Source of the DNA: a virus
DNA: 40,259 bases
IMG/VR virus record: IMGVR_UViG_3300023439_000002
Coordinates: 1 to 40,259 of that record
Strand: one strand, 5' to 3'
Numbering within the stretch: position 1 is the first letter of the stretch; each line of letters starts with the position of its first letter. The notes beneath the pieces are model-generated. The model worked only from the letters and a program-made list of their open reading frames with translations, did no database searches and was not told the origin of the DNA. The translations under genes were made by a program, and so were the position numbers. Shown here piece after piece: positions 6,652-40,259 of the stretch.

Positions 6652-7191
6652 ATGAAATACGCACATTATAATGAAACAGATGGAAAACTACTAGGTTGGT
6701 ATGATAGTGAAATTCACACAACCATACCTACACCAAATATAGAGATAAGCGAAACAGATTGGCAAGTAGCAGTTGATAATGGTTACAATTATGTAGACGT
6801 AGCTACTGGAACACTTAGTTTAAAAGACTTCAGAACAGCAGAAGAGGTATTCAATCAAGCTAAATCTGCAAAAACAAGTGAAATAATGCAAGCATTCAAT
6901 AGTTTAGTAGAAGCAATTACTACAGCATTACCGCATGAGATGATAAGCTGGAGGAAACAAGAAGATGAGGCTAGAGCGTATACAGCTGATAATACAGTAG
7001 CTACTCCGTTCATAGATGCACAATTAGCTATAAGACAGCTAGAAACTAAAGATGAGTTAGTAGCTAAGATAATTGCAAATGCAGATGCATACCAAGTTGC
7101 TTATGCTGGGTTACTAGGTAAGTACCAGAACTTAACTAATAAGATAAATACTGCAACTACGATAGAAGAATTGGATATTATTGTATGGTAA
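6652..7191 (+). CDS. Tail fibre assembly protein, DUF4376-like (second copy)
   Basis: This 179-residue protein looks like the product of 4083 in architecture: a variable N-terminal fibre-reading part and a helical C-terminal part with FIDAQLAIRQLETKDELVAK, then AYAGLLGKYQNLTNKI and the same closing style (EELDIIVW versus ELDLIGW). It probably assembles the fibre encoded just upstream. It overlaps the next gene by seven bases, with GTATGG serving as both its C terminus and the next start. Confidence 0.65.
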   Translation: MKYAHYNETDGKLLGWYDSEIHTTIPTPNIEISETDWQVAVDNGYNYVDVATGTLSLKDFRTAEEVFNQAKSAKTSEIMQAFNSLVEAITTALPHEMISWRKQEDEARAYTADNTVATPFIDAQLAIRQLETKDELVAKIIANADAYQVAYAGLLGKYQNLTNKINTATTIEELDIIVW

Positions 7192-7448
7192 GAACCAAAG
7201 AAGAGCTAATAGTATTATATGCTAAGTTTGATAGAGATGTAGCGAAGAGACCTAGATGGTTTAGGTTTCTTCTTGCATTAGACCAGCTTTTTAATGTTCT
7301 TATTTGGAATGGTTCTCAAGATGAAACTATATCAAGTCATATAGGAAGATTAAAGAGAGCTGGTAAAGCTACCAAGTTTGATTGCCTAGTATGTTATTTA
7401 CTTAACAAACTAGAGTATAATCATTGTAATTTAAGTTTAGGGGAATAA
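7185..7448 (+). CDS. Conserved small phage protein of unknown function, 87 aa
   Basis: The middle of this protein (RPRWFRFLLALDQLFNVLIW, residues 22-41, then GSQDETISSHIGRLKRAGKA) has the look of a short conserved protein often found between fibre and lysis genes in prophages. It has an amphipathic hydrophobic helix but no clean transmembrane segment, and two Cys in FDCLVCYLL near 65-73. Its start overlaps the preceding stop by seven bases. A role beside lysis is inferred only from position. Confidence 0.6.
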   Translation: MVRTKEELIVLYAKFDRDVAKRPRWFRFLLALDQLFNVLIWNGSQDETISSHIGRLKRAGKATKFDCLVCYLLNKLEYNHCNLSLGE

Positions 7449-7449
7449 T

Positions 7450-7881
7450 GTGAGTGTAGAGAGTTGGATGGTTACAGTTGTAATAGCGCTTTTAGGTGCT
7501 GTAGGTACTTATGCTGTATTAAGAAATAGAGTAACAAGAAGTGAAAAAGACTTTGAGAAACATACAGATGAGTATACTATATATAAAAAAGATATAGATA
7601 GTCGTATTGATGCAGGATTTAAGAAAACTGATATATGTATTGAGCGGATTATTAAGCTTGAACAGGATACGTCAACACACTTAGACCTAGTTAAAGCAGA
7701 AGAGACTTTTGTATCTAAAAAAGAGCTAGAACTGCATATAAAAATACTTGAGCTAGGAATGACAAATATCTCCTCAAAAGTTAATGACACTAATAATAAG
7801 GTGGAAAGTATTGAGGGAAAGCTTGGGGATTTGGTAGAGCTATTAACAGAATGTAGAATAGATACAAAAGGGGATAAGTGA
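7450..7881 (+). CDS. Membrane-anchored coiled-coil protein, possible inner-membrane spanin or lysis accessory protein
   Basis: The gene starts with GTG at 7450; the alternative ATG at 7448 is followed at once by TGA. AGGGGAATAAT lies upstream. The 143-residue protein has one N-terminal membrane segment (VTVVIALLGAVGTYAVL, about 8-24) and then a long charged, heptad-like region to the C terminus, the shape of i-spanin or DUF2730-like proteins. It lies directly before the holin and overlaps its start (TGATG). No overlapping outer-membrane spanin with a lipobox was found, so the spanin idea is unconfirmed. Confidence 0.5.
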   Translation: MSVESWMVTVVIALLGAVGTYAVLRNRVTRSEKDFEKHTDEYTIYKKDIDSRIDAGFKKTDICIERIIKLEQDTSTHLDLVKAEETFVSKKELELHIKILELGMTNISSKVNDTNNKVESIEGKLGDLVELLTECRIDTKGDK

Positions 7882-8267
7882 TGTTAGGTTTTTTATCAAA
7901 TATATTTGGTGGTGGGATTGTTAAATCAGTTGAGAATGTTGCTAAAGAATGGATAGATACGCCAATAGAAAAGGCGCAAGGAAATAAGATTGATGCAGAA
8001 GCTAAGGCATTGTTCATCAAAACCTTAGACCCTAATGGATTAATGAGAAGAGATATAAGTCGTAAAGTATCTATTGCATATTTAGTATATTTATTTACTG
8101 TAATGGCTTTAGTTCTTTGTCAATCATTCGAGATAGGAGATGTAGATAATGTTAAACAAGCTATTAACAGTCTTACTGATTTGTTTGTACCTATTACTAC
8201 TATGTTTACTGCCATTGTTGGCTCTTCTTTTGGTGTTAATATCACTAATAGTCTAAAAGGTAAATAG
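7881..8267 (+). CDS. Holin, 3TM gene-transfer-release type
   Basis: The ATG at 7881 is preferred over the GTG at 7878 because it gives a TGATG overlap with the previous stop and proper spacing to AAAGGGG. The 128-residue protein resembles the 3TM holins related to the gene-transfer-agent release holin: a short amphipathic N terminus (LGFLSNIFGGGIV), a charged middle ending in NGLMRRDISRKVSIAY, a hydrophobic segment (YLVYLFTVMALVLCQSF) and a second one (LFVPITTMFTAIVGSSFG). It would open the inner membrane for the endolysin encoded at 8430. Confidence 0.72.
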   Translation: MLGFLSNIFGGGIVKSVENVAKEWIDTPIEKAQGNKIDAEAKALFIKTLDPNGLMRRDISRKVSIAYLVYLFTVMALVLCQSFEIGDVDNVKQAINSLTDLFVPITTMFTAIVGSSFGVNITNSLKGK

Positions 8268-8268
8268 T

Positions 8269-8433
8269 ATGTATAACAAGAAAGAGCCAAAACCTATCTG
8301 CGATAAATGTGCAGATAAAGCAGGTTTAAACTTCTTCTTATTAAGTCCTAAGGTTGCAATAGGTAAGTGTTATATGTGCAAAAGCAAATACAATCTAGTT
8401 AATTATGCAGTATTGGAGGCCTTAAACAAATGA
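8269..8433 (+). CDS. Small zinc-ribbon-like protein, 54 aa
   Basis: A short frame reads from ATG at 8269, one base after the holin stop, to TGA at 8431-8433, overlapping the endopeptidase start by four bases (ATGA). Its product contains two Cys pairs, ICDKCADKAG (residues 10-19) and GKCYMCKSK (about 34-42), spaced as in a compact zinc ribbon. Packing in the lysis operon and the coupled stop/start support a real gene. I cannot tell whether it binds nucleic acid or acts in lysis timing. Confidence 0.65.
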   Translation: MYNKKEPKPICDKCADKAGLNFFLLSPKVAIGKCYMCKSKYNLVNYAVLEALNK

Positions 8434-8840
8434 AAAGTAAATATTTTAAAGTACACGAATTAGTACCAAAGCATCTATATGAGAAGTATGGAGAAAAAGC
8501 TTGGAAGTTTATAGATAATAGACTAATAGCTGAGATTGATAAACTAAAGGAGCATTTCAATTTAGGCACTGCAACTATCAATAACTACTATTGGAATGGA
8601 GATAGACATTGGTCTGGGCTAAGAACTCCTGAGAGTCCATACTATTCTGAAACATCACAACATAGTTTCGGTAGAGCAGTAGATATGGTTTTTAGTGACT
8701 ATACAGCTGAAGAAGTTAGAAACTATATAGTTAATAACTCTTACGAATTCCCTTATATAAAAGGTCTCGAGCTTGGAGTTAGTTGGGTTCACCTAGATGT
8801 AAGAAATGAAGACCACTTAATAACATTTAATAAAGGATAA
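8430..8840 (+). CDS. Endolysin, M15-type peptidoglycan endopeptidase/carboxypeptidase
   Basis: This 136-residue enzyme should cleave peptide bonds in peptidoglycan during lysis. The zinc-site pattern of M15/VanY-like peptidases is visible: SQHSFGRAVDMVF (His78 and Asp85), and VSWVHLDVR (His121). There is no signal peptide, so the upstream holin would release it. Length is typical for a single-domain phage M15 endolysin without a cell-wall-binding domain. The start overlaps the small zinc-ribbon gene by ATGA, with GGAGG about 14 bases upstream. Confidence 0.82.
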   Translation: MKSKYFKVHELVPKHLYEKYGEKAWKFIDNRLIAEIDKLKEHFNLGTATINNYYWNGDRHWSGLRTPESPYYSETSQHSFGRAVDMVFSDYTAEEVRNYIVNNSYEFPYIKGLELGVSWVHLDVRNEDHLITFNKG

Positions 8841-12489: not shown

Positions 12490-12650
12490 TTAAGAATATT
12501 AAAGATGAAAAAGAACTTAGACTATATCTAGAGGGATTGGCTAAAAAACCTAAAGTACTTTCCATTAATATTACACTTAGTAATCCTCCAACACAGGAAG
12601 AGCTACAAAAGGTGATAGATAAAATTAATGAACTTATATCTAATTTATAA
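12486..12650 (+). CDS. Small hypothetical protein, 54 aa
   Basis: A short frame starts at ATG 12486, overlapping the tail-protein stop in ATGA, and ends at TAA 12648-12650. The product is charged and helical (MIKNIKDEKELRLYLEGLAK), with a C-terminal segment TQEEL...VIDKINELI that looks like an amphipathic helix. AGGGCCTCAGAA upstream gives a weak ribosome site, so coupling is likely. Function is unknown. Confidence 0.5.
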   Translation: MIKNIKDEKELRLYLEGLAKKPKVLSINITLSNPPTQEELQKVIDKINELISNL

Positions 12651-12689
12651 ATTAATATTAGATTAATATTAATTATGGTATAATAAATT
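12651..12689 (+). promoter_or_regulatory. Late promoter (TTAATATTA type)
   Basis: TATAAT at 12679-12684 is preceded by TTATGG and by two TTAATATTA blocks about 11 bp apart. The same design stands before the scaffold gene at 39680. The box lies only five bases before the ATG of the GNAT-like gene, so transcription should begin at or next to that ATG. It likely drives the ejection proteins, portal and internal virion protein. Confidence 0.7.
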
Positions 12690-13094
12690 ATGATAAAATT
12701 AATAGACGATATAGATTTTTTTGATTTAATAGCCTTAAATTATATGTATTTAAAGTCATTTAATGATAAGCCTAGAAGGTTTGACTGTACAAAAGCATTA
12801 GTAGATAATTTATTAATGTATAATGCTACAGCTTGTGGCTTATATAAAAATAATATATTAGTAGGATTTATTTTAGGCTATAATACAGACTTAGGTTATT
12901 ATTTTGACTCCGCTTATATACTCCCTAAGTATAGATATTATGCTAAAGCATTATATAATTTTGCTGAAACTAATATAAAAGTCTTAGGCTATAATAAATG
13001 GTACTGTACAATTAATACAGAATTAGGTAAAAAATTTATAGAGCATTATGGAGCTACAAATATAGTAGATAATATCTATATAAAGGAGATATAA
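12690..13094 (+). CDS. GNAT-like acetyltransferase fold protein, virion region
   Basis: This 134-residue protein has a recognisable N-acetyltransferase-like order: an acidic N-terminal helix, strand GLYKNNILVGFILGYN (about residues 51-66), YILPKYRYYAKALYNFAE (about 76-93; the usual Q/R-x-x-G-x-G/A acetyl-CoA loop is not clear, so binding is doubtful), and a C-terminal NTELGKKFIEHYGATNI. Similar proteins are common beside internal virion proteins of T7-like and other podoviruses. Its start is five bases from a TATAAT box and lacks a Shine-Dalgarno site, so it may be leaderless. Confidence 0.6.
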   Translation: MIKLIDDIDFFDLIALNYMYLKSFNDKPRRFDCTKALVDNLLMYNATACGLYKNNILVGFILGYNTDLGYYFDSAYILPKYRYYAKALYNFAETNIKVLGYNKWYCTINTELGKKFIEHYGATNIVDNIYIKEI

Positions 13095-23314: not shown

Positions 23315-23651
23315 TATCGAACTCCATTTTAAGCTGTTCATACTTAGGGTCTGTAGACTTGATAAAGTTGCCATTAGAATTTAAAAATCCTTTACGGTCT
23401 TTGATATCATTATAAGCCACTTCCCAGCATCTCTCAAGTGTAGTACTATATAGTGCAGCTATATTAGTTAATACTACTAAGCAGTCACCAATATCATCTT
23501 CTATATTAAATCCCTTAGTAATATTATCACAGAGCTCACCAACTTCACTGGCTAGTTTTAAACCTTGTGTTGTTAGCTTACCATTAGTAAGAATACCTCT
23601 ATCGTGTGACCAACTTAATGTTAAATCTCTTAACTCTACTAAACTTTTCAT
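23301..23651 (-). CDS. MazG-like nucleotide pyrophosphohydrolase
   Basis: This 116-residue protein has the family signature of MazG-like all-alpha NTPases: TQGLKLASEVGELCDNITKG with metal-binding Glu36 and Glu39, and EDDIGDCLVVLTNI with acidic residues at 51-56. These coordinate magnesium. Such enzymes hydrolyse dNTPs or (p)ppGpp-like nucleotides; the exact substrate cannot be read from sequence. It sits with ligase and the HTH gene under the promoter at 23889, and its start overlaps the HTH stop (TAATG). Confidence 0.78.
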   Translation of the reverse strand: MKSLVELRDLTLSWSHDRGILTNGKLTTQGLKLASEVGELCDNITKGFNIEDDIGDCLVVLTNIAALYSTTLERCWEVAYNDIKDRKGFLNSNGNFIKSTDPKYEQLKMEFDNGTV

Positions 23652-23866
23652 TACTTTTCTCCTAATTCATATTTTAGTGACTCTTCTGCAAATGGGTGTA
23701 ATACTACTATATCTGCTGTATAAGCTCTTATTGCAACAGCTAGACTAGGGTTGTAACTCTTCTTATAAGCACTAATCATACTGACACTTACACCTAACTT
23801 TTCTGCTAACTCTATACTAGTAATCTCCTCTAATTGAGAAGCTACATACTCTTTAATAAATACCAT
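23651..23866 (-). CDS. Small HTH protein, possible transcriptional regulator
   Basis: This 71-residue protein has a helix-turn-helix pattern (SIELAEKLGVSVSMISAYKK, about residues 17-36) like Cro/XRE-type proteins. It is the first gene after promoter 23889 and has a strong AGGAGGAATAG site. A stem-loop at 23945-23978 lies upstream and could be its target or the end of the preceding operon. It may regulate early-to-late switching, but the DNA site is not known. Confidence 0.6.
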   Translation of the reverse strand: MVFIKEYVASQLEEITSIELAEKLGVSVSMISAYKKSYNPSLAVAIRAYTADIVVLHPFAEESLKYELGEK

Positions 23867-23888: not shown

Positions 23889-23925
23889 ATTATATCATAA
23901 TTGAGATTAAATTAAACTTAAATTA
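23889..23925 (-). promoter_or_regulatory. Leftward promoter with periodic TTTAAT blocks
   Basis: On the minus strand TATAAT (23889-23894) is preceded by TTATGA, then TTTAATCTCAA, then TTTAAGTTTAA, the same order as the promoters near 37 kb. It lies between a stem-loop and the HTH gene, so it should drive the HTH-MazG-ligase-VRR-NUC-helicase operon. Confidence 0.72.
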
Positions 23926-29073: not shown

Positions 29074-29565
29074 TTACTCTGAGTCTGTTAAAAGACCTAT
29101 ACTTGAGTAATCTGGTTTTTTAGCTTTAATAGCTTCAAGAGCTTCTTTAGCTTCATCTGGAGTTAAGTCACCAGAAAGAACATCAGCCATAATTGCTTTT
29201 TCAGAAGCTTGTGTAGCTTTCATAAATTGCTTACGTACTGACTCTGCTTGACGAGAAAGTCTTTTAAGACGTGAGCCATCTGTACCTTCAATACCTTTAC
29301 CTTCAGCTTTTTCTTCATAAAAATACTCTCTAGTTGCTGGTAACCATTTACCACTAACTGAACATTGGATTTCAGTGATTTTACCATTTGCATCTTTACG
29401 AGTTACTTCATCAAGGTTAACTGTCATACCTGCTGTTTTAGGTGCTAAGTTATCCGCAAGAATAGCTTGTAGTTTCTCATTGAATGGCGCTGGTGTTTTA
29501 AACTGAGCACATAGTGCCTCTGCTGCTGTTGATACTGTTTTAAATACTTCTTTTTTTGTTGCCAT
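29074..29565 (-). CDS. Early protein of unknown function, paralogue of the product of 36242
   Basis: The protein has 163 residues. It shares with the product of 36242 a block KLQAILADNLAPK (about residues 31-43; versus KLSNILDTNLMPK), then a CSVSGKWLPATREYF region aligning with CRFHQRYEPQEDMVI, then basic Lys/Gly spacing and helical tail. The sequences look like diverged copies. The second Cys of the paralogue's possible metal site is missing here. It is driven by promoter 29669. Function is unknown, possibly nucleic-acid binding. Confidence 0.62.
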   Translation of the reverse strand: MATKKEVFKTVSTAAEALCAQFKTPAPFNEKLQAILADNLAPKTAGMTVNLDEVTRKDANGKITEIQCSVSGKWLPATREYFYEEKAEGKGIEGTDGSRLKRLSRQAESVRKQFMKATQASEKAIMADVLSGDLTPDEAKEALEAIKAKKPDYSSIGLLTDSE

Positions 29566-29668: not shown

Positions 29669-29708
29669 ATTATAACGTATTAATTATTAAACGAAGATTA
29701 AATCAAAT
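29669..29708 (-). promoter_or_regulatory. Early leftward promoter with periodic blocks
   Basis: On the minus strand TATAAT (29669-29674) is preceded by ATACGT, TTTAATAATTA and TTTAATCTTCG. It overlaps the 3' end of the Dda-like helicase gene and should drive the 163-residue protein and the SSB. Confidence 0.7.
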
Positions 29709-32564: not shown

Positions 32565-32798
32565 TTATAACCCTTTTGCATATTCTAATACGTCTTCTTT
32601 ACTATAGTCTATCCAACCATAGTCATTCATGTGTTGTGCTAACTTTTCAGCAAGCTCTAGTAGTGTATCCATATCTTCTTGATTACCAACTAATTGCTCT
32701 TCTGCATAGTCATAATCTATTCTAAGAAGTTGGCCTTCATGAGCCTCCTGTTTCATCTCTAATTCCATTTCATATTTGAGTTCTTCTTGTTTTGTCAT
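32565..32798 (-). CDS. Small acidic early protein, 77 aa
   Basis: This acidic helical protein (QEELKYEMELEMKQEAHEGQ at the start; DMDTLLELAEKLAQHMNDYG, about 38-57) is the first gene after the promoter at 32823. AAAGGAGACAGG lies upstream. Small acidic phage early proteins often inhibit or sequester host factors, but nothing here proves that. Confidence 0.55.
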   Translation of the reverse strand: MTKQEELKYEMELEMKQEAHEGQLLRIDYDYAEEQLVGNQEDMDTLLELAEKLAQHMNDYGWIDYSKEDVLEYAKGL

Positions 32799-32822: not shown

Positions 32823-32848
32823 ATTATAACGAATAATATATTAAAATC
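32823..32848 (-). promoter_or_regulatory. Leftward promoter before the 77-aa gene
   Basis: On the minus strand TATAAT (32823-32828) follows TTCGT and an AT-rich stretch with GATTTTAATATATT. It matches the general family less well than the 37-kb promoters. It is just downstream of the terminator at 32853. Confidence 0.55.
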
Positions 32849-32852
32849 TTAT

Positions 32853-32888
32853 AAAATTCTTAGACTAATTTATAAATCTAAGAATTTT
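32853..32888 (-). terminator. Terminator after the primase-helicase gene
   Basis: AAAATTCTTAGA and TCTAAGAATTTT form a 12-bp stem around a 12-base loop. It begins a few bases after the primase stop, and AT-rich sequence with T runs follows on the minus strand. It would separate the primase message from the next operon. Confidence 0.65.
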
Positions 32889-32892
32889 TTAA

Positions 32893-35115
32893 TTAAGATA
32901 GGTCTATATCATCACCTGGCACCTCTTCAATTTCCTTAGGTGCATTTAATATAGTTATATACTTATACTTCCCTGAGTCAAATATAACTCTCTTATTGTT
33001 ATTAGTTCTAGCTACTATATTATCTATTGTCTTAGCCAGTATATACGAAGCACCAGAAGCTTTTAGTTTATCTTGTAGGCTCTTAGTGTTAACTATGTAA
33101 TTGTTAGACTTGTCATATTTATACTCTACATCCTCTGGAGAGAGCTGGAACATCTCTAACACTCTAGTATATGTTTGGTATCGCTGGTCTTTGTATAGTA
33201 GGTTAGAAGCTGTGTCAGACTTATCAGAAGTTGCCTCAATATATGTAAGATATGACTGTGAGTGCTGTCGTGAGTAGGCACTGCTATACTCTTCTCTTGT
33301 TACTATTATAGTACATTCATTCCCTATCCAGTAGTAGAAGTCAAGTAGTGAAGCCTCTGACATAAGGGCATCTAGGTCACTCTTATCATAGTTACCACCT
33401 CTAAGTTTTTCTAATGGCATCGGCATGTATACAGTGTGTATCCTACGTGATGAGTTTATGTCTGTATGCAACTTAGTCCACGAGTTACCTGTAACCCATA
33501 TCTTTATTATACTCTGCACTGTCGTTGCTGTCTGCTGCATCCCTCTATATGTTACTATGCCGTTAGAGCCTGATATTGTCTTAAGCCTCTCTAGCATATC
33601 ATCCTGTTCTGAAAATCTCCACTCACCTACCTCTGAAAATATTACATTCTCTTTAGTCTGCCAGTTTGAGTGCTTATCCTTCATTAGTGTGTAGTCTAAG
33701 CTTTGTGCTGGCTCTGAAAACCCCCTAGTCATTATATTTATAGAGAGGTCTTTACCTGTACCTTCCTCACCAACTATATGTGTTACTACTGGAGTGTATT
33801 CAAATGTAGAATATCTGTACTTCATAGCACCTATAAGATACTCATACTCATCACCCCACATGTATTGTAAGAGTTCTAGAAATCTGTATGGTATAGAGTA
33901 TGTGCTAGGTTTTGCCCCATTAAATGCTTGTAGGTAACGATTATGGATTGCAGTATTAAATTTAGCATTTCCTCGTGAATACTCACCGTCATGGTAGCCA
34001 TAGTCCTTAGAATAATCAGCATAGGTAGTTACTGTCTTAATCTTAGTAGTATCTCTACGTAACTGCTCTGGCCGCACCCTAGTTATCTTCTCCATGAGCT
34101 CTATATATACAGACCTATTCTTTAAGCGGTGAAGTATCTGCTGTGCAATACTATTTTTATATGAGACTAGGTACTCTCCAGTTGCTGAGTCATAAAATAC
34201 TTCTATAGGTGTTTTAATCTCCTTATGTGTTACTGTATATGTTATCTGCTTAGTTACTATATTAGGGTCATATCTCCATAGTCCATTAGTATTAGCTAGC
34301 ATCCTCTGGATATGCTCCGAGTGTAGCTCTGCCTGTGTTTTCCTACCTGTGTGCTGGTTATACTTCTCCATAGTTGCTATGTAATCTTCATGATTAATTG
34401 TTAAGTCTGATGCTAGACGAGTGCTCAGTCGCTTATATACCTCATTAGACTGCTGAGGTGGTATAGGGTCTGGTAAGCTATAGAACTCATTAAACTGCAC
34501 CTGTGTAATTAAGTTTGCTAAGTATTCCTTAACTAGTGTTGCTGCATTGTCAGAGTTCCTCTCTAGTGGTGATAGTGCTATCGCCCTAGCATTCTTAGGT
34601 AGTGAATTAATAACTATATTTGATATTAAAGTGTTAATAGCTGTATTGTATTTCGTTAGAGTATATGTATCGTTGTGATATAGTATCTCCTTACCTGTCT
34701 CTGCCTTTGTTGGTGCGATAACATTATGAGTTGGTCCACTTAATATATCTAGTGTTGATTGCTTAGTATGTTGTGCTGGTAGTGTGATACTAGGGTTTTC
34801 TAGGTAGTAGAAGTGCCCACCCTTTCTCAAGCTCTTAACTATATATACACATTGATATTGTTGCTGGAGTTGTGAATTGTACCTTAGTGCCTCCTCAAAA
34901 CTCTCGTTGGTGTCAAAGTCTATTATAGTGAGATTGGTAGTGGGTACTATATATACCGTGTCTAGGTCTGCTAGCTCGTTGAGTGGTATAGTACTTTGGT
35001 TCTCTTTGGTGCCCCACTTTACTTTCTTGTAATAGTTACTAAGCTGTTTCTTAGTGTCTTTAGTTACCTTAAAGTCCTTAGGTGTGTTGAGTGATACTAT
35101 TTGTATATTAGTCAT
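32893..35115 (-). CDS. Primase-polymerase/helicase, bifunctional replication protein
   Basis: I chose ATG 35115; the longer frame from 35142 runs into the upstream gene. The 740-residue protein has an N-terminal prim-pol part with LTIIDFDTNES (catalytic Asp pair about 66-68), SLRKGGHFYYLE, and DILSGPTHNVIAP; and a C-terminal SF3/D5-like ATPase with Walker A HIVGEEGTGKD (about 446-456) and NVIFSEVGEWRF (about 490-501) as Walker B. It would lay primers and unwind DNA with the family A polymerase and SSB. Its early position beside an iteron-like array supports an initiator role. Confidence 0.78.
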   Translation of the reverse strand: MTNIQIVSLNTPKDFKVTKDTKKQLSNYYKKVKWGTKENQSTIPLNELADLDTVYIVPTTNLTIIDFDTNESFEEALRYNSQLQQQYQCVYIVKSLRKGGHFYYLENPSITLPAQHTKQSTLDILSGPTHNVIAPTKAETGKEILYHNDTYTLTKYNTAINTLISNIVINSLPKNARAIALSPLERNSDNAATLVKEYLANLITQVQFNEFYSLPDPIPPQQSNEVYKRLSTRLASDLTINHEDYIATMEKYNQHTGRKTQAELHSEHIQRMLANTNGLWRYDPNIVTKQITYTVTHKEIKTPIEVFYDSATGEYLVSYKNSIAQQILHRLKNRSVYIELMEKITRVRPEQLRRDTTKIKTVTTYADYSKDYGYHDGEYSRGNAKFNTAIHNRYLQAFNGAKPSTYSIPYRFLELLQYMWGDEYEYLIGAMKYRYSTFEYTPVVTHIVGEEGTGKDLSINIMTRGFSEPAQSLDYTLMKDKHSNWQTKENVIFSEVGEWRFSEQDDMLERLKTISGSNGIVTYRGMQQTATTVQSIIKIWVTGNSWTKLHTDINSSRRIHTVYMPMPLEKLRGGNYDKSDLDALMSEASLLDFYYWIGNECTIIVTREEYSSAYSRQHSQSYLTYIEATSDKSDTASNLLYKDQRYQTYTRVLEMFQLSPEDVEYKYDKSNNYIVNTKSLQDKLKASGASYILAKTIDNIVARTNNNKRVIFDSGKYKYITILNAPKEIEEVPGDDIDLS

Positions 35116-35335
35116 TGTTAGTATCCTTATTGTCTTGGGCATTTGCTATAGCTAATATAAGTGGTTTAACTACTGAAAATGAGGTAGAGTGTTTGAAGCC
35201 TATTTTCTTGGATACTATATGGTGCTTATATTCCTTAATATCGTTAGCTATCTCAGGTGCGAAGGTAACTATATGGTTCCAGTAGTCAGGGTCTTTATGT
35301 GCCTTGATATATTCTAGCCATTGCTTGTAATTCAT
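35108..35335 (-). CDS. Hypothetical early protein, 75 aa
   Basis: The first gene after promoter 35368 encodes a 75-residue, helical, His/Lys-rich protein (NYKQWLEYIKAHKDPDYWNH, then EYKHHIVSKKIGFKHS). Its stop overlaps the primase start by eight bases, and AAGGAATATA precedes its own ATG. It may act with the primase, but no motif is visible. Confidence 0.58.
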   Translation of the reverse strand: MNYKQWLEYIKAHKDPDYWNHIVTFAPEIANDIKEYKHHIVSKKIGFKHSTSFSVVKPLILAIANAQDNKDTNND

Positions 35336-35367: not shown

Positions 35368-35405
35368 ATTATATCATATTATATATTAAAAATATATTAA
35401 AAATA
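35368..35405 (-). promoter_or_regulatory. Leftward promoter of the primase operon
   Basis: On the minus strand TATAAT (35368-35373) is preceded by ATATG and by two TTTTTAATATA blocks 11 bp apart. It uses the same periodic design with a distinct block sequence. It drives the 75-residue gene and the primase-helicase. Confidence 0.72.
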
Positions 35406-35439: not shown

Positions 35440-35707
35440 GTCTTATTAGTCTTATTTGAGATTTGTGTTGGCATATTAGTCTTTTGTGTCCTATTTGGCT
35501 TATTGAGATTTGGTTGTGCTGTATATTGGATTTTTTGGACTGTCAAAAGACTAATAAGACAAAAGACATGTGCCCGAGGCTCTTTACGTAAGGGAATGTG
35601 GTTGAACTGTGCCGGCATATTCAGCTTATTAGTCTTTTGTGTCTTTTCAGTCTTTTTGTATATTTTATATTGTCTTATTAGTCTTATTAGTCTTATTAGT
35701 CTTATTA
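35440..35707. repeat. GTCTTATTA iteron-like array with a 15-bp inverted repeat
   Basis: GTCTTATTA is present at 35440-35448 with a near copy at 35449-35457, and in four perfect tandem copies at 35672-35707. Related AGTCTTTTGTGTC elements lie at about 35478 and 35632. An inverted pair CAAAAGACTAATAAG (35544-35558) / CTTATTAGTCTTTTG (35625-35639) surrounds a 66-base GC-richer insert. The 421-bp space from 35336 to 35756 has no gene I can support. It is a candidate origin or structured RNA beside the primase operon. Confidence 0.7.
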
Positions 35708-35756
35708 TATTTATTTATAATTAAAATAGATAATAAAATAAAACAAAATAAAACAA

Positions 35757-36241: not shown

Positions 36242-36700
36242 CTACTCACCTTTGAAGGCTAACCAATCCCTCTCATAGTCATAAGTTTCCGGACTATTGA
36301 GAGAGTCTTTAAGAGCCTTCGACTCTTTGGCAAGTTCTTGAGCCTTCTCAAAGTCACCGTTAGCCATTGCCTCAACGGCTTGTGAGTCAAGTTTTTTGAT
36401 TTGGCTATTAAGTTTATTCCAGAGACTTATAGAAGCCTTACAATAGCCTTTCGATTTACCTTTCGATATAACCATATCTTCTTGTGGTTCATATCGTTGA
36501 TGAAATCGGCAGTAATAGTGCATAATACCGTCAATTTCTTTTGGCGGATTTGCAGAATTCCCGGCGCCACTTTTCGGCATTAAATTAGTATCTAAAATAT
36601 TAGATAACTTTTCTTTAAAAGCTTTTGACAACTTTGGTTGCGACTCTAGTAGTTCGAGCACTTCTGTACTAACTTTGTTATATAATTCTGTTTTAGTCAT
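36242..36700 (-). CDS. Early protein of unknown function, paralogue of the product of 29074
   Basis: The ATG at 36700 has AGGAA six bases upstream; the frame to 36736 is longer without a site. The 152-residue protein shares KLSNILDTNLMPK and a following Cys/His-containing region (IMHYYCRFHQRYEPQEDMVI) with the product of 29074, then KGKSKGYCKASISLWNKLN and a helical tail with repeated AxxxAxELAKE. Possible metal ligands are two Cys and two His. It follows promoters at 37 kb and lies between two UUCG hairpins. Confidence 0.6.
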   Translation of the reverse strand: MTKTELYNKVSTEVLELLESQPKLSKAFKEKLSNILDTNLMPKSGAGNSANPPKEIDGIMHYYCRFHQRYEPQEDMVISKGKSKGYCKASISLWNKLNSQIKKLDSQAVEAMANGDFEKAQELAKESKALKDSLNSPETYDYERDWLAFKGE

Positions 36701-36748
36701 AATAGGTTCCTGTTTGGTTAATTTGACACTATGCACTAGTATCTATAA

Positions 36749-36774: not shown

Positions 36775-36978
36775 TTATTTACGGGTATCAAAATCAGATT
36801 TAATGGCTTCAATTATATGATTATTATTATTGGCACCGTAACAATAGGTTGAATAATATAAATTTAACTCAGCATTTTCGTAAAATATAAATGTGCAATC
36901 GCCTTGGCCTAAGTTATCTTCGTACATATATTTAAATTCAATCGAATTTAATTTAATCGTTTTCATTTCCATTTTCAT
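36775..36978 (-). CDS. First early protein, 67 aa, unknown
   Basis: This 67-residue protein is the first gene of the leftward block, directly after three promoters. It is acidic and Asn/Tyr-rich (AELNLYYSTYCYGANNNNHI), with one Gly-rich turn (NLGQGDCTFIFY). AAGGATATG provides the start signal. First early genes often inhibit host functions, but nothing here is diagnostic. Confidence 0.6.
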   Translation of the reverse strand: MKMEMKTIKLNSIEFKYMYEDNLGQGDCTFIFYENAELNLYYSTYCYGANNNNHIIEAIKSDFDTRK

Positions 36979-36993
36979 ATCCTTCGTTTTAAT

Positions 36994-37032
36994 ATTATAA
37001 TTATATCATAATGAAGATTAAACGAAGATTAA
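36994..37032 (-). promoter_or_regulatory. Early promoter 1 of three tandem leftward promoters
   Basis: On the minus strand TATAAT (37000-37005) is preceded by TATGA, then TTTAATCTTCA and TTTAATCTTCG, 11 bases apart. It lies 22 bases before the first early gene and is the clearest example of the periodic promoter family. Confidence 0.75.
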
Positions 37033-37182
37033 ATTAAAAAGAAATTTTTAATCAATTTAATTCGCTCGTCTTCCGTTTGATAATTAAATTATATCATAAA
37101 AAAGATTAAACGAAGATTAAATTAAAAAGAAATTTTTAATCAATTTAATTCGCTCGTCTTCCGTTTGATAATTAAATTATAT
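37014..37182. repeat. Two 81-bp direct repeats on an 88-bp period, each carrying a promoter upstream block
   Basis: 37014-37094 and 37102-37182 are identical over 81 bases by eye. Each contains AAGATTAAACGAAGATTAAA (the promoter block, read on the minus strand as TTTAATCTTCG) and CGCTCGTCTTCCGTTTGA. The repeat duplicates the upstream region of promoters 37000 and 37088. Confidence 0.85.
37088..37125 (-). promoter_or_regulatory. Early promoter 2
   Basis: On the minus strand TATAAT (37088-37093) is preceded by TATGA, TTTAATCTTTT and TTTAATCTTCG. It is carried on the second copy of the 88-bp repeat and transcribes through promoter 1. Confidence 0.72.
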
Positions 37183-37215
37183 GCTATTTAATATTAAAAT
37201 TAGATTAAATATACC
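37176..37215 (-). promoter_or_regulatory. Early promoter 3
   Basis: On the minus strand TATAAT (37176-37181) is preceded by AGCA, TTTTAATATTA and ATTTAATCTAA. It is the most upstream of the three leftward promoters. The block is more diverged. Confidence 0.6.
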
Positions 37216-37273
37216 TTAAATTTATATTAAATTTATATATTAATATTAATATCATATTATATTTTAATCTTTA

Positions 37274-37331
37274 TTATGCTATTCGCGTGCGCGTCGCACG
37301 ATTATATGAGACGCGCACGCGAATAGCATAA
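37274..37331. repeat. GC-rich 22-bp perfect inverted repeat
   Basis: The arms begin TTATGCTATTCGCGTGCGCG and end GACGCGCACGCGAATAGCAT (37274-37295 and 37310-37331), perfect over 22 bp, with a 14-base loop. It is the most GC-rich spot in an AT-rich intergenic region, and lies between divergent operons. It may be a terminator, a cruciform in an origin, or part of a packaging site. Confidence 0.8.
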
Positions 37332-37378: not shown

Positions 37379-37402
37379 TATAAATTTAATATTATGGTCT
37401 GG

Positions 37403-37409
37403 CCCCCCC
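37403..37409. other. C7 tract next to the palindrome
   Basis: GGTCTGGCCCCCCCATCGAC is unusual in this AT-rich region. It lies about 330 bp before the small terminase gene, where packaging sites are often found. I have no direct evidence that it is a cut site. Confidence 0.3.
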
Positions 37410-37445
37410 ATCGACAGTTTGACTTTATAATTATAATAATACAAA

Positions 37446-37661
37446 GGCTAGAGAAATACAACCAATTTTAAAACACCTTCACAATTTAACACAATTATAA
37501 CACTTACTAGAAGCTAGAGAAATACAACCAATTTTAAAACGCTTACTCTTATAAGAGCAAGCCTTCACAATTTAACACAATTATAACACTTACTAGAAGC
37601 TAGAGAAATACAACCAATTTTAAAACGCTTACTCTTATAAGAGCAAGCCTTCACAATTATA
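37446..37661. repeat. Direct repeats of 66 and 86 bp before the terminase genes
   Basis: Three copies of GCTAGAGAAATACAACCAAT start at 37447, 37513 and 37599. Copies 2 and 3 include the near-palindrome GCTTACTCTTATAAGAGCAA plus GC (37541-37562 and 37627-37648); copy 1 lacks this 20-base element. ACAATTTAACACAATTATAA lies between copies. They may be binding sites for the small terminase or a replication protein. Confidence 0.78.
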
Positions 37662-37689
37662 ACACAATCTACTAAATATCCCATCTAAG

Positions 37690-37717
37690 CAAACTTTAAT
37701 CTAATTTAAGATATAAT
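37690..37717 (+). promoter_or_regulatory. Rightward promoter before the terminase genes
   Basis: TATAAT (37712-37717) follows AAGA and TTTAATCTAATTTAAG, the early-type block with one repeat. The small terminase ATG lies 18 bases downstream after AAAAAGGACTCAC. Confidence 0.65.
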
Positions 37718-37734: not shown

Positions 37735-38124
37735 ATGAACTCCCTACCAGAAGCATTAGTTAAGATTTATAAAAGAGAATACGAAACTACAGATATAACT
37801 AAAAGTGCTTTACAAGCTAAATATCAATTACCAACAATTCCAGAGGATTGGATGAAACCATCTAAACCTACCGAAACTAACAAACAAGAAGCCATAGTAC
37901 CACCTAGTACCAATACTGAAAAGATAGAAGAGTTTAAGAAGTTAGCTCTAAACCATGCTCTAAAGTTTATGCAGGATGATGCGCAATTTGCTGAGGTAAA
38001 AGAGTTTAAGGATATGGTTAGTATAGTAGGCACAATAGAGGCATCATATAAAGACACTAAGCCAGAGAATACTATAAATATAGCGATACAGAATATAGTT
38101 AAAGGGTTTACAGATGACTGCTAG
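37735..38124 (+). CDS. Small terminase subunit
   Basis: This 129-residue protein is mostly helical. The N-terminal part (LPEALVKIYKREYETTDITK, residues 4-23) may form a DNA-binding helical domain, followed by a Pro/Thr-rich linker (KPTETNKQEAIVPPSTNTEK) and a C-terminal helical oligomerisation part. Position immediately before the large terminase, overlapping it by 11 bases, is the standard one. It should recognise packaging DNA, probably in the repeated region upstream. No specific motif was seen, so the call depends on position and shape. Confidence 0.65.
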   Translation: MNSLPEALVKIYKREYETTDITKSALQAKYQLPTIPEDWMKPSKPTETNKQEAIVPPSTNTEKIEEFKKLALNHALKFMQDDAQFAEVKEFKDMVSIVGTIEASYKDTKPENTINIAIQNIVKGFTDDC

Positions 38125-39652
38125 CCGGGCACTTCCTATAGATGGGATACTAATCAAAGGAGAGCACTCAGACCTACAAGAGTTTATAGATACTAAGTTA
38201 TCATCAAAATTATGGCGCTTAAATAACCTTTATACTATTGAAGATAAGGATGGAATTAAACAGATAATGAAGCTTAATTCAGCTCAGATGAAGGTATTAA
38301 CTCAATATAAACATAATAGGAAGATAATCTTAAAGTCTCGTCAGCAAGGTATATCGACACTATTTTTAGCTTATAATTTAGATAGTTGTATATTTGGTGA
38401 AGGGTTTTCAGCAGGTATTCAGAGTTATGGTCAGGATGAGAGTAATAAACTACAGAGAAGAGCAGAATTAATGTGGGATGAGTTTCCAGAAGAAATTAAA
38501 ACACTCTTAGGAATTAAACTCACTAGTAATAACCAGAAAGGGATGACATTTAGTAATAGGTCGATATTAAAGATTGGTAACTTCCGTGGTGATACATTAC
38601 AGAGTCTACATGTATCTGAACTGGGTAAAATAGCCTCAAAATTTCCAGAAAAGGCTGAGGAGCTTAAGAAAGGCGCATTTCAGTCGGTAGGCACTAAGAA
38701 TAAGATAACTATAGAGTCTACAGCAGAAGGGCAAAGTGGTATGTTTTATGAAATGTGGAATAAAGCAGAGGCAAAGGCTAAGGCCCAAGTAGACCTCTCA
38801 CCACTAGACTTTCAGGCTATATTTCTTAGTTGGGTTTATGACCATGATTGTGTATTAAATCATAAACAAGAGATAACTGAAGAGTGCCAGAAATACTTAT
38901 CCAAAGTTGAACAAGAGTTAGATATAGTATTAACACAAGAGCAGAAGTGGTGGTATGTAGCTAAGAAGGATGAGTTGGGTTCAGGGTTTGACCAAGAGTA
39001 TCCATATAACTCTAAGGTTGCATTTGAGCAAAGTCTTGAGGGCGCCTACTATCAAGATGAGTATAAAAATCTTAGAATACAACCTGGTATATATGACCCT
39101 AACTTAGAAGTTCATTCAGCTATGGATATTGGCGTTGCTGACCCTACAGCAGTAGTCTTCTTTCAAGTAAGGCCAGATAATAGTCCTTATATAATAGCTG
39201 AGTATTCTAACCAAGGTGGTGGGCTAGAACACTTCGCTAGTGTATATAAAGCTTTAGGTAAAAAATTAAATTGTAGATTTGGTAAAACACTAGTTCCACA
39301 TGATATTGCTGTAAAAGAGTGGATAAGTGCTAAAACACGATGGGAAGCTATGAGGGAGCTTGGGTTTAATACCGTACTAGTTAAAAAACATAGAATAAAT
39401 GATGGTATAGAAGCAACAAGAAAAATGCTAAAAATAGTAACTATAGACTCTACATGTATAGAAACCATAACTAGTATACAAATGTATAGGAGAAAGTATG
39501 ATAAGAAATTTAATATACTATTGGATGCCCCAGAGCATGACATATATAGTCACATGGCAGATGCACTAAGATATATGGCTATGGGACTAAGATATGGAGC
39601 CGTTAGTTATCCTAAAAAATATAGTAATAAAGTTTCAGGTTTTGATATATAA
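38114..39652 (+). CDS. Terminase large subunit
   Basis: This 512-residue packaging motor shows an ATPase part with Walker A-like KSRQQGIST (74-82), Walker B-like SLHVSELGK with Glu169, and coupling motif IESTAEGQSG (about 200-209), and a nuclease part with AMDIGVADPTA (Asp338, Asp343) and YSHMADALRY (His480, Asp483). The length is typical. It overlaps the small subunit gene by 11 bases, and AGGGTTTACAG serves as the start signal. It fits headful or other concatemer packaging; the end type cannot be read from it. Confidence 0.88.
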   Translation: MTASRALPIDGILIKGEHSDLQEFIDTKLSSKLWRLNNLYTIEDKDGIKQIMKLNSAQMKVLTQYKHNRKIILKSRQQGISTLFLAYNLDSCIFGEGFSAGIQSYGQDESNKLQRRAELMWDEFPEEIKTLLGIKLTSNNQKGMTFSNRSILKIGNFRGDTLQSLHVSELGKIASKFPEKAEELKKGAFQSVGTKNKITIESTAEGQSGMFYEMWNKAEAKAKAQVDLSPLDFQAIFLSWVYDHDCVLNHKQEITEECQKYLSKVEQELDIVLTQEQKWWYVAKKDELGSGFDQEYPYNSKVAFEQSLEGAYYQDEYKNLRIQPGIYDPNLEVHSAMDIGVADPTAVVFFQVRPDNSPYIIAEYSNQGGGLEHFASVYKALGKKLNCRFGKTLVPHDIAVKEWISAKTRWEAMRELGFNTVLVKKHRINDGIEATRKMLKIVTIDSTCIETITSIQMYRRKYDKKFNILLDAPEHDIYSHMADALRYMAMGLRYGAVSYPKKYSNKVSGFDI

Positions 39653-39690
39653 CTAATATTAAATTAATATTAGTTATGTTATAATATATA
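39653..39690 (+). promoter_or_regulatory. Late promoter (TTAATATTA type) before the scaffold/capsid genes
   Basis: TATAAT (39680-39685) follows TTATGT and two ACTAATATTA/ATTAATATTA blocks 11 bp apart. The sequence nearly matches the promoter at 12651-12689. It should drive the scaffold, capsid and tail genes. Confidence 0.72.
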
Positions 39691-39714: not shown

Positions 39715-40259
39715 ATGGGTAATCCAGAGGCAACTAAGCCAGATGCTACCTCAACTAACACTGTTGATGAAGCCAAAGTTAAGATAGACTATGAGAAACG
39801 GTTTAAAGATACACAAGGTGCATATACTAAGTCGCAGCAAGCTCTAAGAGAAGCACAAGCGAAATTAGAGGCTCTTGAGAAATTAACTGTACCACAGGTT
39901 GAAGTAGATGAAGCAACAAAAACAGAGTTAGAAACTTTAAAGTATGAGGACCCAGATGCATGGCGTGCTAAAGTTAACCAACTTGAGAGTGAGGCTGCTA
40001 GAAAGCACCAAGAGACTCTTAATGAAGCTGGTAGGTTAGCAGCACAACAAGCAGAGCTGGAGCGAAGAGCTCAAGTATTAGAGGAATTTAATAGAAGCCA
40101 TGATATAGTTATAACTGATGAGGTTATACAGTATGATGTTCCTCCTAGAATTACTAAAAAGCTTGAGAGTGGTGATATTAGTTTTGAAGCTTACCTCGAG
40201 GAAGTGTCTCAATATCTAAAGACTCCAAAAGTTATAGGCGATGTAAATGAAACACTTAA
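39715..40259 (+). CDS. Scaffolding protein, N-terminal part (continues at 1-224)
   Basis: The ATG at 39715 has AAAGGAAATAA upstream. The window contains 181 codons here and the frame continues at the window start, giving a 213-residue product. It is acidic and helical with long coiled-coil stretches (KSQQALREAQAKLEALEKLT and RLAAQQAELERRAQVLEEFN), the typical form of scaffolds that guide capsid assembly and later leave. It lies between TerL and the capsid gene. Confidence 0.72.
   Translation, partial: MGNPEATKPDATSTNTVDEAKVKIDYEKRFKDTQGAYTKSQQALREAQAKLEALEKLTVPQVEVDEATKTELETLKYEDPDAWRAKVNQLESEAARKHQETLNEAGRLAAQQAELERRAQVLEEFNRSHDIVITDEVIQYDVPPRITKKLESGDISFEAYLEEVSQYLKTPKVIGDVNETL
40133..40259. 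repeat. Terminal duplication, right copy
   Basis: The last 127 bases match 1-127 exactly. They keep the scaffold frame in register across the join, which shows that the contig closes into a circle. Confidence 0.9.

Follow-up and report, generated by a model that had tools for sequence, protein, structure and literature searches.

Ten predicted promoters carrying a rigid TTTAAT direct repeat in place of a -35 box in a phage likely to infect Campylobacterota

The window analyzed here is the whole of IMG/VR virus record IMGVR_UViG_3300023439_000002, a stretch of 40,259 bp representing a 33% GC genome. Positions 1-127 are identical to positions 40133-40259, and this exact 127-bp terminal direct repeat suggests that a circular genome of ~40.1 kb was probably assembled in full. 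A leftward block running from 36978 to 20200 encodes DNA polymerase, ligase, thymidylate synthase, helicases, and single-strand binding protein and, given this gene content, is presumed to hold the early genes. The rightward genes include TerL, with structural and lysis genes placed there by gene order in relatives. Two paralogues of phrog_10459, a family without an assigned function, lie at 36242-36736 and 29074-29565, and one of the promoters described below stands directly before the latter; homologues are found in phages VPMS1, KF-1, and PH1 as well. The window falls in a group with KF-1, PH1, and VPMS1 when judged by its TerL, its DNA polymerase and primase, and its single-strand binding protein, and Amaethon groups with these phages and the window by TerL, DNA polymerase, and primase. 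Four full-length relatives were read, whose TerL likeness to that of the window is 86% (G002), 64% (G003), 66% (G005), and 59% (G004). An Rfam search of the window gave no match.

An earlier note on this DNA had listed ten TATAAT boxes, each with a position and a strand, and all ten are present (Table 1). The interval on which that note centered, 36994-37215, is a tandem 88-bp repeat that contains three of the ten predicted promoters.

Table 1. Predicted promoters of the window and the tandem repeat that houses three of them; scores are from the matrix built on G002, G003, and G005
Feature	Position	Strand	Sequence and context	Score
Promoter, upstream copy of tandem trio	37176..37210	-	TTTAATCTAATTTTAAT-N11-TATAAT; faces leftward (presumed early) genes	30.2
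Promoter, middle copy of tandem trio	37088..37122	-	TTTAATCTTCGTTTAAT-N11-TATAAT	38.9
Promoter, gene-proximal copy of trio	37000..37034	-	21 bp 5' of ATG of gene 36775-36978	40.0
88-bp tandem repeat, 2.5 copies	36982..37245	.	Houses all three tandem promoters	
Promoter	35368..35402	-	Before gene 35108-35335; kept before G002 orthologue	31.9
Promoter	32823..32857	-	Before gene 32565-32798; weak first block TTTTAT; kept in G002	24.8
Promoter	29669..29703	-	Before gene 29074-29565 (phrog_10459 family)	36.8
Promoter	23889..23923	-	Before small HTH gene 23651-23866; kept in four genomes	33.5
Promoter	12650..12684	+	TATAAT-N5-ATG, gene 12690-13094	34.2
Promoter	37683..37717	+	Before gene 37735-38124; kept in four genomes	34.2
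Promoter	39651..39685	+	Before gene 39716 (MGNPEATKP...), which precedes the presumed capsid gene	32.5

Sites that stand before orthologous genes across the relatives are those of the HTH gene, of the phrog_10459 gene, and of the genes preceding TerL and the presumed capsid gene. The phrog_10459 site is kept before the orthologues in G002, G003, and G005 and the site near the presumed capsid gene in four genomes; gene 37735-38124 lies directly upstream of TerL and the presumed TerS. At the region matching the tandem trio, G002, G003, and G005 each carry two promoters 89-91 bp apart. Since the TATAAT box at 12679 lies five bases 5' of an ATG, a leaderless mRNA is predicted for the gene that follows, and the same TATAAT-N5-ATG pattern occurs in G003, G005, and G004. 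Three such promoters in tandem, ~110 bp apart, were also seen at 7843-8097 of a related phage contig (L268).

TATAAT alone was rejected as a signal because its count in the window is not above chance (138 found versus 134.6 expected). The absence of a clear -35 box, asserted in the earlier note, is borne out: TTGACA/TATAAT pairs stand at chance level (95 found versus 95.6 expected; 10 versus 13.6 in a second scan), none of the ten sites has TTGACA at 16-18 bp from its TATAAT, and a TTTAAT pair occupies the place of the -35 box. The complete layout TTTAAT-N5-TTTAAT-N11-TATAAT, counted as a TATAAT preceded by TTTAAT at distances of exactly 17 bp and 28 bp with at most 2 mismatches in total, occurs 9 times in the window versus 0.07 times in local dinucleotide shuffles. 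When TTTAAT with at most 1 mismatch was sought upstream of TATAAT in four related genomes, its distances peaked at 17 bp (44 occurrences) and 28 bp (45), with mostly ~4-15 at other distances and lesser peaks further upstream at 33 bp (23) and 39 bp (18). Shifting the register of both blocks by 1 bp reduced the number of sites in the four genomes from 34 to 1-2. The TTTAAT blocks and their spacing of about 11 bp are as the earlier note described them, but the signal is a rigid direct repeat with conserved flanking bases and not loose AT-richness.

A position matrix scored against coding and intergenic sequence had been proposed as a check, and matrices trained without the window genome recovered exactly the ten sites. 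With a matrix from G003 and G005 only (~65% alike), the ten sites scored 23.4 to 40.0 and the next place in the window scored 15.5; with a matrix from G002, G003, and G005, the ten scored 24.8 to 40.0 and the next place 13.6. All ten are intergenic.

The consensus of 38 sites from the clade reads A TTTAAT (C/A)T NNN TTTAAT (A/C)T N4 T N (T/C) G (A/T) TATAAT. Because TATAAT and the two hexamers helped to pick the sites, their conservation is partly by construction; outside the selection, strong biases are seen for A (-41), C/A (-34), T (-33, -22, and -17), and G (-14). A preceding TATG, to which the earlier note had drawn attention, is present in only 6 of the 10 window sites, the base that is really conserved being the G at -14 (9/10 in the window and 34/38 in the clade), which fits a -10 element of the form gnTAnaAT. 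C at -34 is found in 20/38 sites versus a background of 9%. T occupies positions -7, -17, -27, and -38 in 38/38, 34/38, 38/38, and 37/38 sites, respectively, of which only -17 is independent of selection, -7 lying inside the TATAAT anchor and -27 and -38 inside the selected TTTAAT blocks. The sixth base of the first hexamer is T in 28/38 sites, G in 8/38, and A in 2/38, and that of the second hexamer is T in 32/38. An additional TATAAT at 35704, beside an array of 9-bp units at 35625-35719 (TTATTAGTC), has the TTTAAT pair and lacks the G at -14; a similar site is present in G002 at 38358.

Sigma-70 promoters of Campylobacter jejuni and Helicobacter pylori have the -10 element gnTAnaAT, no -35 box, and a T periodicity at -7, -17, -27, and -38 (PMC3847290, PMC3656092), and C. 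jejuni has been described as having leaderless genes with the arrangement gnTAnaAT-N5-9-ATG (PMC3847290). The phage sites resemble promoters of Campylobacterota sigma-70 (RpoD/sigma-80) in each of these respects. They differ from the bulk of them in that the upstream signal is a direct repeat of TTTAAT(C/A)T, near-invariant and exactly spaced, rather than a loose average. As far as comparison of sequences can tell, the ten sites are a real promoter family, of a kind already known but in a form of unusual rigidity.

Gene sharing and CRISPR spacers had been suggested as means of predicting the host, and of these the first was informative. The M15 endolysin gene at 8430-8840 has 74% DNA identity over 386 bp to Campylobacterota genome G746, and the adjoining gene at 7185-7448 is 66-71% identical in several Campylobacterota genomes. 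The same query against 398 Pseudomonadota genomes returned nothing beyond short and weak matches, located elsewhere. Among phages, the endolysin has its nearest homologue in Sulfurimonas phage SNW-1, with 73.7% amino acid identity, the next being at 44%. Comparison of both halves of the window with 397 Campylobacterota genomes gave no convincing CRISPR spacer, matches to the right half being weak and mostly AT-rich, and a TerL search for prophages in cellular genome contigs found no relative. On the strength of the endolysin and lysis-gene matches to Campylobacterota loci and to SNW-1, the host is likely a member of the Campylobacterota, perhaps near Sulfurimonas.

KF-1, PH1, and VPMS1, which infect Gammaproteobacteria and belong to the same phage group as the window by core genes, have none of these promoters. 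Two T4-like Campylobacter phages with known hosts, CP220 and NCTC12673, were scanned over the first 50 kb of each. CP220 (Firehammervirus) has 11 sites in the identical register versus 0.38 in shuffles. As in the window, these are pairs 17 and 28 bp from TATAAT and mostly lie just before genes, although CP220 is an unrelated phage, its second hexamer is mostly TTTAAG, and its first hexamer is weaker. NCTC12673 has 5 sites versus 0.55 expected, with one shuffle reaching 3 and a variant with a 10-bp period equally common. No such sites were found by the scan in Helicobacter phage KHP30 or in SNW-1, so that a phage of Campylobacterota need not have the element.

A search of IMG/VR with the strict TTTAAT form returned 70 stretches, many of them from relatives. 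Two to six high-scoring sites each were present in contigs in which a homologue of the window was not detected (L266, L275, L279, L281, L285, L290, L317, and L319), and a further contig with high-scoring sites, L276, showed only a weak ligase match; homology was compared over parts of the contigs, so that its absence is provisional. By this comparison, the layout is common to phages for which no common protein was detected. L290, L276, and L317, phage contigs with a GC content of 22-30%, have three to six promoter copies each.

The layout also occurs in cellular genomes. In a wider cellular scan, 78 of 80 sites among the matches listed were intergenic, and chance AT-rich runs were rejected on this ground as an explanation of the cellular matches. 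Most of these matches came from Bacillota, where they fit CiaR-like operators; the motif alone therefore names no phylum, and per-genome rates were measured. The strict pattern TTTAAK-N5-TTTAAK-N11-TATAAT was found in 87/200 Campylobacterota genomes, 1/200 Pseudomonadota genomes, and 3/149 Bacillota genomes, where each of the latter two counts includes one seed genome and base composition is not the same in these phyla. The reversed pattern, a control that covers composition within a phylum only, matched just 6 times in Campylobacterota. Host genomes contain few copies of the strict pair, which tend to precede stable-RNA genes. Sixteen of 20 inspected Campylobacterota sites, chosen partly for repetition within a genome, lie before such genes, seven of them before 16S and the others before 23S (one, L178, assigned by its identity with L175) or tRNA genes. 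The family of genome G746 has further sites before 16S and tRNA-Glu genes.

A regulator with a similar operator is known in this phylum. HP1043/HsrA is an essential OmpR-family orphan regulator of H. pylori whose binding site, TTTAAG-N5-TTTAAG, replaces the -35 box. It gives ChIP peaks at the 16S rRNA promoter and many tRNA promoters and activates transcription ~5-fold in vitro (PMC5253667, PMC8345958). Its operators, found at rRNA, tRNA, and ribosomal-protein genes, share with the phage sites two hexamers, a 5-bp spacer, an 11-bp period, and the position of the -35 box, and the occurrence of the strict layout before Campylobacterota rRNA and tRNA genes, an independent finding, agrees with the HP1043 regulon. 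They differ in having G as the sixth base where the phage sites mostly have T, and the phage copies are candidate operators in phages and not in host genes. In streptococci, the OmpR-family regulator CiaR likewise has a TTTAAG-N5-TTTAAG operator upstream of TATAAT (PMC3091779). CiaR promoters, however, have N10 rather than N11 before the -10 element, an invariant G rather than mostly T, and a Gram-positive host, while the phage group of the window is related to phages of Gram-negative hosts. Both the promoter layout of stable-RNA genes and the apparent likeness to the HP1043/HsrA operator are absent from the earlier note.

Taken as promoters for the host polymerase, the ten sites are well supported by these comparisons. 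A Campylobacterota host would read them with its housekeeping sigma-70 RNA polymerase, which would recognize an extended -10 element with G at -14 and TATAAT at -12 to -7, the -35 box being replaced by the direct repeat of TTTAAT(C/A)T with hexamers at -40 to -35 and at -29 to -24. An 11-bp period would put both copies on one face of the helix, adjoining polymerase. We propose, with a probability of roughly 0.6, that the repeat is bound by a host regulator of the HsrA/CosR type: the orphan regulator of the OmpR family, known as HP1043/HsrA in Helicobacter and as CosR in Campylobacter, would recruit polymerase as it does at host genes. Leftward and rightward phage operons alike would then be plugged into the host's stable-RNA promoter system, and tandem copies upstream of the leftward genes (three in the window, two in relatives) would raise output. 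The virus probably borrows the strongest promoter design of its host. More tentatively, and at somewhat under even odds, unrelated lineages of Campylobacterota phages may have converged on, or exchanged, one promoter class with an HsrA/CosR-family operator and so depend on that master regulator of rRNA and tRNA genes.

The base preferences speak partly against an activator. The sixth base of the first hexamer is mostly T at the phage sites, where the first HP1043 half-site needs G as its last base (PMC8345958), and the published C. jejuni CosR site (PMC3139631) differs, being no obvious TTTAAG repeat. Moreover, the positions of the T residues match the general Campylobacterota periodicity, so an activator is not strictly needed. 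It is conceivable, though less likely, that the TTTAAT blocks are not an operator but an optimized periodic T signal read by polymerase itself through sigma region 4, the alpha C-terminal domains, or DNA bending. T at -7, -17, -27, and -38, which most sigma-70 promoters of C. jejuni and H. pylori are reported to have (PMC3847290), matches the 38 sites, and no phage-encoded binder tracks the motif, as direct reading would have it. Such a signal does not readily account for an exact register without one-base wobble, for conservation beyond A/T content such as the C at -34, or for the rarity of the strict pair in host genomes and its tendency to precede stable-RNA genes bound by HP1043.

A binder encoded by the phage is highly improbable, since no candidate tracks the motif. 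The two candidates are the small HTH protein (HTH_3) of 23651-23866 and the phrog_10459 protein, and it is true that the former is encoded under one of the promoters and that one of the two paralogues of the latter lies directly under another. Yet phrog_10459 homologues exist in VPMS1, KF-1, and PH1, all without the motif, and the HTH protein is confined to the clade: it was not found in CP220 or NCTC12673 (first 50 kb each) or in the unrelated motif contigs, and the HTH protein of the window and that of VPMS1 gave no alignment. That leftward and rightward operons share one motif further makes a stage-specific activator unlikely. As to chance, AT-rich runs picked by eye in a 33% GC genome would agree with the lack of enrichment of TATAAT alone, but the independent matrix that recovers exactly ten sites already refutes this reading, and with the shuffle counts, the drop on shifting the register, and the enrichment in CP220, its probability is negligible. 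The earlier note had seen no phage RNA polymerase gene. In our searches, the window gave no match to sigma-70 region 4, and five genomes gave none to PF00940 (T7-type polymerase), a search whose control gave no signal either. The note's suggestion that the phage uses the RNA polymerase of a Campylobacterota host gains support from the promoter features, the enrichment in host genomes, the Campylobacter phages, and the lysis genes.

A quantitative promoter signature obtained from sequence may help to assign uncultivated phages to Campylobacterota hosts; here it separated CP220 from KF-1, PH1, and VPMS1 and missed KHP30 and SNW-1. These data connect the periodic signal long known to stand where a -35 box would be with a direct repeat that is rigid and has a candidate binding protein, and the use by phages of a regulator that controls host ribosome and tRNA genes becomes directly testable. 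Because HsrA of H. pylori is under study as a target for drugs, an HsrA-dependent phage, if true, would be of wider interest.

A GC-rich inverted repeat (GCTATTCGCGTGCGCGTC...GACGCGCACGCGAATAGC) at 37276-37330, in the divergent intergenic region, is possibly a replication origin or packaging signal, and similar GC-rich palindromic stretches lie at the matching place in G002, G003, and G005. The same intergenic region has a run of C at 37402-37410 (GGCCCCCCC); C or G homopolymer runs, in large intergenic regions close to the divergence point, were seen in G002, G003, G005, and G004 too. At 37447-37668 there are iteron-like 86-bp direct repeats with a short palindrome (CTTACTCTTATAAGAGCAAG), and G002 has different repeats at the matching place.
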